Source: Baffinella frigidus
Taxonomy: Eukaryota; Cryptophyceae; Cryptomonadales; Baffinellaceae
Assembly (NCBI GenBank): GCA_026770585.1
Contig: MU646370.1
Coordinates: 902,415-938,252 of the forward strand
DNA: 35,838 nt
Direction: 5' to 3'
Position numbers and translations under genes: made by a program. Positions within the stretch are counted from its first letter, which is position 1; each line of letters begins with the position of its first letter. Shown one piece after another: positions 1 through 35,838 of the stretch. The notes under the pieces are model-generated. The model was not told where the DNA came from. It did no database searches and saw only the letters and a list, made by a program, of their open reading frames with translations.

Positions 1-172
1 CCCTCAAACCTCAACCCTACACTTTAAACCCTCAACCCTGAACCCTCAACCCGAAACCTTACACCACAAACCCTACACTCGAAACCCTAAACCCTAAACC
101 CTACACTGTAAGCTCTAAACCCTAAGCCCTACACTGTTAGCCCCAACGCCTGACCCCTAACCCCTAACCCAG
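1..172 (+). repeat. Intron 0 (3' part), mixed telomere-like heptamers
   Basis: The stretch is made of CCCTCAA, CCCTAAA, CCCTACA and degenerate relatives and ends in CTAACCCAG, the acceptor of exon 1. Its donor lies left of the window. The downstream reading begins in the middle of a protein unit, so this must be an intron and not a 5' leader. CTAAC-like repeats just before the AG could serve as branch points. Confidence 0.8.

Positions 173-35838
<35,666 letters not shown>

Follow-up and report, generated by a model that had tools for sequence, protein, structure and literature searches.

Predicted spliceosomal introns made of telomere-type heptamer arrays in the cryptophyte Baffinella frigidus

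Introduction

A very long gene of Baffinella frigidus is interrupted by introns whose bodies consist mainly of CCCTAAA-like heptamers, and the reading of the sequence that we favour on balance is that these predicted spliceosomal introns arose from telomere-type arrays that were inserted many separate times, most likely at breaks, and were then filtered by splicing. The window, i.e., the whole stretch of 35,838 nucleotides that was analysed (MU646370.1:902415-938252, from a genome assembly of 382 Mb and 1,364 contigs), is contained in this one plus-strand gene. Arrays of the same kind are found throughout the genome and also interrupt conserved genes.

Cryptophyte nuclei have TTTAGGG as their telomere repeat, and telomerase is able to start new repeats from a default position of its template. 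TTTAGGG is likewise the telomere repeat of plants and dinoflagellates (PMC11453091). Telomere-type repeats at internal sites have been described for mammals, where these interstitial telomeric sequences (ITS) are inserted in one step at double-strand breaks, sometimes with duplication of the target (PMC2246262, PMC7215372). The by-products reported for such inserts are deletions, additions, and duplications, and the authors favour telomerase as their source (PMC2246262); in human, introns contain 31% of the ITS, which is the share expected by chance (PMC7215372). A draft genome and a transcriptome of Baffinella have been published (PMC9756366).

This paper describes the composition, borders, orientation, and flanks of the heptamer introns in the window and their counterparts elsewhere in the genome, and weighs the ways in which they may have arisen.

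Results

The host gene and its protein

The host gene occupies 173-35838 on the plus strand as 25 joined exons and closes at neither end of the window. With the final set of 24 intron borders the spliced coding sequence runs through 10,072 codons with 0 stops, and the joined exons hold 67 matches, some of them partial, to a tandem beta-sandwich domain of approximately 142 amino acids. Matches to this domain continue past the window as far as MU646370.1:949558; the gene reaches at least that position, and its predicted product is giant, with no fewer than 10,072 amino acids. The domain copies are diverged, with a mean column identity of 27% over 22 copies. A single copy was modelled by AlphaFold as a beta sandwich with a mean pLDDT of 88, for which Foldseek gave weak matches only, including staphylococcal ClfB, BslA, and yeast flocculins (query TM-score 0.25-0.46 among the matches listed), and a Pfam scan of three exons gave for this domain only a sub-threshold match to Big_8 (E 0.31). 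The host protein may be a surface protein of the adhesin type. In the midst of the tandem domains, at 29016-29336 on the plus strand and inside the exon at 28469-31726, an Endonuclease I domain (PF04231, E 5e-20) is encoded.

The sole protein relative found was P0001 (1566 aa, jgi), with 24% identity across 39% of the query; it is encoded on an 8.5-kb metagenome contig and is apparently of the same tandem-domain kind. A paralogue search with one exon protein matched only the host gene itself on its own contig, so that no paralogue could serve as a presence/absence control for its introns.

Intron borders

To place the borders, a profile was derived from the exon-internal copies of the repeated domain, and all open GT, GC, GA, or AT...AG combinations around each tract were scored with it. 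The GT-AG pair used was the best-scoring combination in 14 of the 24 introns; for the remaining ten, an in-frame GT-AG pair was chosen by hand, and these borders are provisional. As expected of spliceosomal introns, all 24 have GT-AG ends and restore the frame, GT-AG being imposed on the ten hand-placed borders; GC-AG ends occur in one kinesin intron (see below). Retention of the intron leads to in-frame stops in 23 of 24 cases.

All introns of the window lie on the plus strand and, unless stated otherwise, consist of heptamer arrays. The partial array intron that the earlier note had recognised at the left edge is borne out (1-172, with the tract at 11-162 and the end CCCAG/GTG). Profile-scored borders delimit intron 1 (1688-2034, mostly CCCTACA, GTAATT..ACCAG), intron 4 (5870-6082), intron 5 (6276-6508, acceptor ACTAG), intron 6 (7984-8147, whose first ~24 nt repeat the beginning of the following exon in diverged form), intron 7 (8473-8732), intron 8 (12100-12394, CCCTGAT and CCCCAAA types), intron 10 (14078-14510, a CCCTCAA array with a 95-N assembly gap at 14151-14245 and a non-array stretch), intron 13 (17578-17987, array and other sequence, coverage 0.56), intron 15 (21206-21340), intron 16 (22326-22528, rich in CCCTTAA), intron 18 (23800-23960, array from end to end, with 0 bases remaining after masking), intron 19 (24245-24431, CCCTCAA), intron 20 (25578-25669, the shortest at 92 nt), and intron 21 (26053-26227, CCCGAAA). 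The hand-placed borders are those of intron 2 (5395-5631), intron 3 (5689-5824), intron 9 (13449-13576, CCCTGAT type, with GTGCAG/GT at both ends), intron 11 (14819-15092, the sole intron without a heptamer array), intron 12 (16597-16758), intron 14 (18212-18583, coverage 0.64), intron 17 (22613-22916), intron 22 (28250-28468, CCCCAAG), intron 23 (31727-31888), and intron 24 (35581-35724).

Composition of the arrays

Heptamer units with at most 2 mismatches cover 0.757 of the introns, as against 0.028 of the exons and 0.265 of shuffled introns. Coverage per intron lies between 0.55 and 0.96 in 23 of the 24 introns and is 0.10 in intron 11, which agrees with the earlier note in its claim that 23 of the 24 complete introns consist mainly of CCCTAAA or its variants. 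A first tract scan, on the plus strand only, gave 27 heptamer stretches in the window, and a stricter detector gave 26 tracts on the plus strand and 0 on the minus strand. Since even the stricter detector, with its 2 allowed mismatches, is lenient and responds to A/C-rich DNA (the reversed unit AAATCCC yields 17 stretches on the plus strand), the case for a period of 7 rests on Tandem Repeats Finder, which reported period 7 or multiples for the window tracts, on unit coverage, and on exact matches. In being tandem arrays of a telomere-type unit away from chromosome ends, the tracts resemble interstitial telomeric sequence.

Exact CCCTAAA accounts for 105 of the 579 units in the window introns, the majority being variants, chiefly at positions 4-6. 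The 256 middle units with in-phase neighbours on both sides include 59 exact ones, and their substitutions number 67, 88, and 44 at positions 4, 5, and 6 and 14-17 at each of the other four positions, A>C being the commonest. This variant pattern differs from that of a perfect telomeric insert that has simply decayed. Moreover, the arrays are locally homogenised: of 458 pairs of adjacent units 147 consist of identical ones, where within-intron shuffles give 88 expected and a maximum of 111, and many introns have a dominant unit variant of their own.

Orientation and splice junctions

A perfect (CCCTAAA)n array contains 0 GT and 0 AG. Per kb, the 24 intron bodies as found hold 12.5 AG and 5.6 GT, and the same bodies turned round hold 100.9 AG and 140.2 GT (an 8-fold and a 25-fold increase), with exons at 36.4 and 54.7, respectively. 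Nine kinesin stretches have 9 sense tracts and 0 antisense tracts. Splicing selection is enough to explain the one-way orientation of the arrays.

Of the 21 introns whose phase could be resolved (a set that omits intron 11 and two introns of unclear phase), 16 have the A of the acceptor AG at heptamer position 3, the array thus ending as (CCCTAAA)nCC/AG. The probability of this count is 3e-10 at an expectation of 1/7 and 4e-11 to 1e-8 against the mutations available in the arrays, the upper limit being that for two-step mutations, values that are to be multiplied by up to 7 because the phase was chosen post hoc. In the same arrays, position 3 accounts for 12.5% of the sites that are one substitution away from CAG and for 18.4% of those that are two away. 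Donors vary widely among the window introns and their positions are scattered, with T at position 4 in 8 of 22 (P 0.009).

Genome-wide, AAACCCTAAA is followed by CAGGT within 0-7 bases 736 times (control 14; overlapping matches may count twice), and the dominant exit is into CCAGGT (313 of 736). Exits into CCTGGT, counted apart, number 22. The first 100 exits into CAGGT that were listed have spacings 0-7 in 9, 44, 13, 4, 6, 2, 7, and 15 cases. In a sample of 47 tracts outside the window, two of them counted twice and one of these at position 7 (L001 and L008 overlap), CAG follows within 12 nt in 18, at positions 1-7 in 2, 2, 5, 1, 2, 1, and 5 cases. The phase lock outside the window is thus weak, which counts against a universal fixed end.

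Intron sites and flanking sequences

The 142-aa domain model allowed 22 of the 24 introns to be mapped, and these occupy 21 distinct position/phase sites with one coincidence. Introns older than the domain duplications would recur at one site in many copies, so that 21 distinct sites in homologous domains argue for introns that were gained separately; given the divergence of the domains, these gains can be dated only loosely.

A few arrays are flanked by direct repeats of 10-32 bp. The borders of intron 6 agree in 25 of 32 columns with a local score of 18, which was reached by 0 of 46 mismatched pairs, and the border similarity over -12 to +12 of the window introns was reached by 8 of 5,000 permutations. 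For 54 tracts from window and genome (a set that leaves out 10 tracts of the tandemly repeated stretch L033 and has two tracts present twice), the mean flank similarity was reached by 0 of 10,000 permutations, and scores of at least 9 were found in 3 of 54 as against 0.08 expected. The corresponding figures are 2 of 10,000 permutations for the 31 tracts that remain when the window is left out as well, and 14 of 10,000 for 55 tracts with L033 included, a result that is partly owed to L033. Direct repeats of the target at the array ends, as expected for intron gain by break repair, are enriched over mismatched pairs and clear in few arrays only; most arrays are without a flanking repeat, the strict score being reached by the same 3 of 54.

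The clearest repeat is found in a kinesin intron (L052, 1657-1892), where an array of ~225 bases lies between two perfect copies of GGCACGAGCC, a 10-bp direct repeat. When the array and one copy of GGCACGAGCC are taken out together as a GC-AG intron, the kinesin reads in frame again, and it is the insert that supplies the A of its acceptor. Copies of exon sequence occur as well: the arrays of a chaperonin intron (L041) are interspersed with two incomplete copies of the exon that follows, which match it in 30 of 34 and 31 of 36 columns, and a kinesin intron of L053 (C506:56100-57230) contains exon copies. Exon ends may commonly be duplicated locally within the introns of the Baffinella frigidus genome. 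The exon copies in the kinesin introns of L053 and L051 (C23:405780-406300) are diverged copies of neighbouring exons and partly free of heptamers. The donor of the third chaperonin intron was considered as a copy of its exon start and did not align under the scoring used.

Arrays elsewhere in the genome

Exact (CCCTAAA)3 occurs 53,120 times in the genome (27,288 forward and 25,832 reverse, overlaps counted), as against 27 matches (14 forward, 13 reverse) for the reversed-unit control. In 20 arbitrarily placed 10-kb stretches, of which 59,399 of 200,000 bases are readable and the rest N, 26 tracts were detected with 5,603 bases, ~9% of what is readable; for the reversed unit as control, the figures are 15 tracts, 1,798 bases, and 3%. 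The GC content of the sampled readable bases is 0.544, and the published value for Baffinella CCMP2293 is 53.9% in an assembly of 534.5 Mb (PMC9756366). An acceptor-like YAGG follows 8 of 24 tracts in random stretches and the mirror-image signal is found at 6 of 24, which is similar on both strands, so that many arrays need not be introns. A translated array compared with proteins at E up to 10 gave 93 matches, of which the 6 with an organism name (E 3e-4 to 1.4) are all from Baffinella frigidus. One stretch, L033 (C123:200001-210000), is gene-like and carries nine arrays on one strand, with exon-plus-array units in tandem.

The arrays also interrupt conserved chaperonin (CCT) and kinesin genes. 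Of 27 introns in these genes, a set that excludes introns cut by the ends of the stretches taken, 5 have an array coverage of at least 0.5, 3 lie between 0.3 and 0.5, and 19 have less, with antisense coverage of at least 0.3 in 0 of 27; the borders were listed by eye, and 5 of the 27 start with neither GT nor GC and are off by at least 1 base. Array introns are thus a sizeable minority in the conserved genes and nearly the rule in the host gene. The earlier note had called it unusual that arrays form most introns of one gene: the proportion of 23 in 24 is indeed extreme, whereas the arrays are not peculiar to this gene, given their abundance genome-wide and in conserved-gene introns.

Among viral contigs, 22 contain (CCCTAAA)3, and 12 of the 22 stretches taken have a detector tract; by eye, intron-like flanks were seen in none of these 12, and neither CCCTAAACCCTAAACCAGGT nor a relative of a host-gene exon was found in the viral contigs. 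Five IMG/VR contigs (L056, L058, L072, L073, and L076) carry short (CCCTAAA)n arrays with near-identical flanks.

Discussion

The sequence of events that we favour begins with heptamer arrays that would enter coding DNA as DNA, most likely during repair of staggered breaks. Inserts with the C-rich strand as sense would survive, because they have almost no GT or AG, are C-rich, and end in CC/AG, so that the first AG met by the spliceosome would be that of the exon junction. The donor would be a GT at the left junction, provided by the target, by a duplicated piece of exon, or by a G joined to the T of the array. After insertion, each array would drift and expand locally until it has its own dominant variant.

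Whether telomerase made the inserts is a separate matter, for which a plausible scheme can be given. In that version, telomerase would lengthen the right-hand fragment at the 3' end of its bottom strand, starting from the default template position, which would fix the right junction, and the other end would be joined anyhow, which would leave the left junction variable. In its strongest form telomerase would act as an intron maker, its extension of the downstream end giving (CCCTAAA)nCCA/G and each insert being a ready-made intron, given that one strand of telomere DNA carries no splice signals, so that a large genome-wide class could arise without a transposon; we regard this form as tentative and rather doubtful. 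The small share of exact units and a variant pattern other than simple decay weigh against a telomerase origin. Two contig starts that were read for the telomere repeat consist of N. The proposal of the earlier note that telomeric repeats, perhaps via telomerase or break repair, seeded these introns therefore stands in part: the tie to intron gain is supported by the 21 sites, the few direct repeats, and the phase-locked 3' junction, and an origin by telomerase or break repair is only plausible.

The arrays could instead have grown by slippage and unequal exchange inside introns that were already present, being favoured on the strand on which they are harmless to splicing. Such growth would fit the local homogenisation (147 of 458 identical neighbours vs 88 expected), the dominant variant of its own in many an intron, and conserved-gene introns that are only partly array (L050, L053). 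However, slippage gives no reason for one 7-nt unit in 23 introns at unrelated sites, and it explains neither the fixed acceptor phase nor the 10-bp direct repeat that encloses exactly one array, and we consider it unlikely. An assembly artefact, or sequence that is never spliced, might be suspected from the N runs of the assembly, the gap within intron 10, and the difficulty of assembling arrays; it is scarcely credible, as the borders hold the frame through 10,072 codons and restore the profile of the domain, identical arrays also interrupt chaperonin and kinesin genes, which are conserved, and exact matches outnumber the control by 53,120 to 27.

Transfer by a mobile element, either an introner or a retroelement with a 3' end set by target-primed reverse transcription, would deliver the array together with a CCA or CCAG end, and would thereby account for the fixed 3' and variable 5' junction, the direct repeats at few sites, and the shared orientation. 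No body of such an element is seen: masking of heptamer-like 7-mers (2 mismatches allowed, any phase) leaves 458 of 5,446 intron bases (intron 11 contributes 179), no two window introns share sequence beyond chance outside the heptamers, and terminal inverted repeats are absent (mean score 3.00 vs 2.93 for the null, 24 introns), which makes this route improbable. Copying of heptamer introns through RNA by reverse splicing is less credible again and has a very low probability in our view; it yields sense orientation and a common 3' end with no need of selection, but neither direct repeats nor copies of coding sequence, and the donors differ widely.

Repeated insertion of arrays followed by splicing selection, the reading preferred here, has relatives among known systems. 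With mammalian ITS the Baffinella arrays share the internal position of telomere-type repeats; they differ in being intron bodies in coding sequence, numerous, of a single orientation, and composed mostly of variant units, and, in the host gene, in having the splice acceptor at a fixed heptamer phase. Insertion of exact units is the mammalian case, whereas 59 of 256 in-phase middle units are exact in the window, with variants at positions 4-6. The new introns reported in PMC3443670 likewise come with internal duplications and with direct repeats of short length; the inserted material described there does not include telomere-type repeats, and no word in the main text of that paper begins with 'telomer'. 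Introners (PMC9860276; dinoflagellate work cited in PMC11453091) resemble the arrays in that many introns of one genome are of one sequence type, and target duplications are reported for some of their families (PMC9860276, PMC11453091), as direct repeats are found at few Baffinella arrays. Unlike introners, which are recognised as similar elements, the 24 window introns share only the 7-nt repeat, and, unlike introners of the DNA-transposon type, they have no terminal inverted repeats. Among the titles and abstract starts listed by full-text searches of the open-licence PMC library, from which subscription papers are mostly missing, none dealt with introns built of telomere-type repeats. The ingredients are known and, as far as this literature search reaches, their combination is new.

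These observations bear on the origin of new introns. If the proposed origin is true, telomere-type repeats would be a source of introns that needs no mobile element, and the one-way orientation of the arrays would be explained by CCCTAAA repeats having neither GT nor AG. Moreover, insertion, orientation filter, and acceptor formation would become countable site by site in the genome of Baffinella frigidus.
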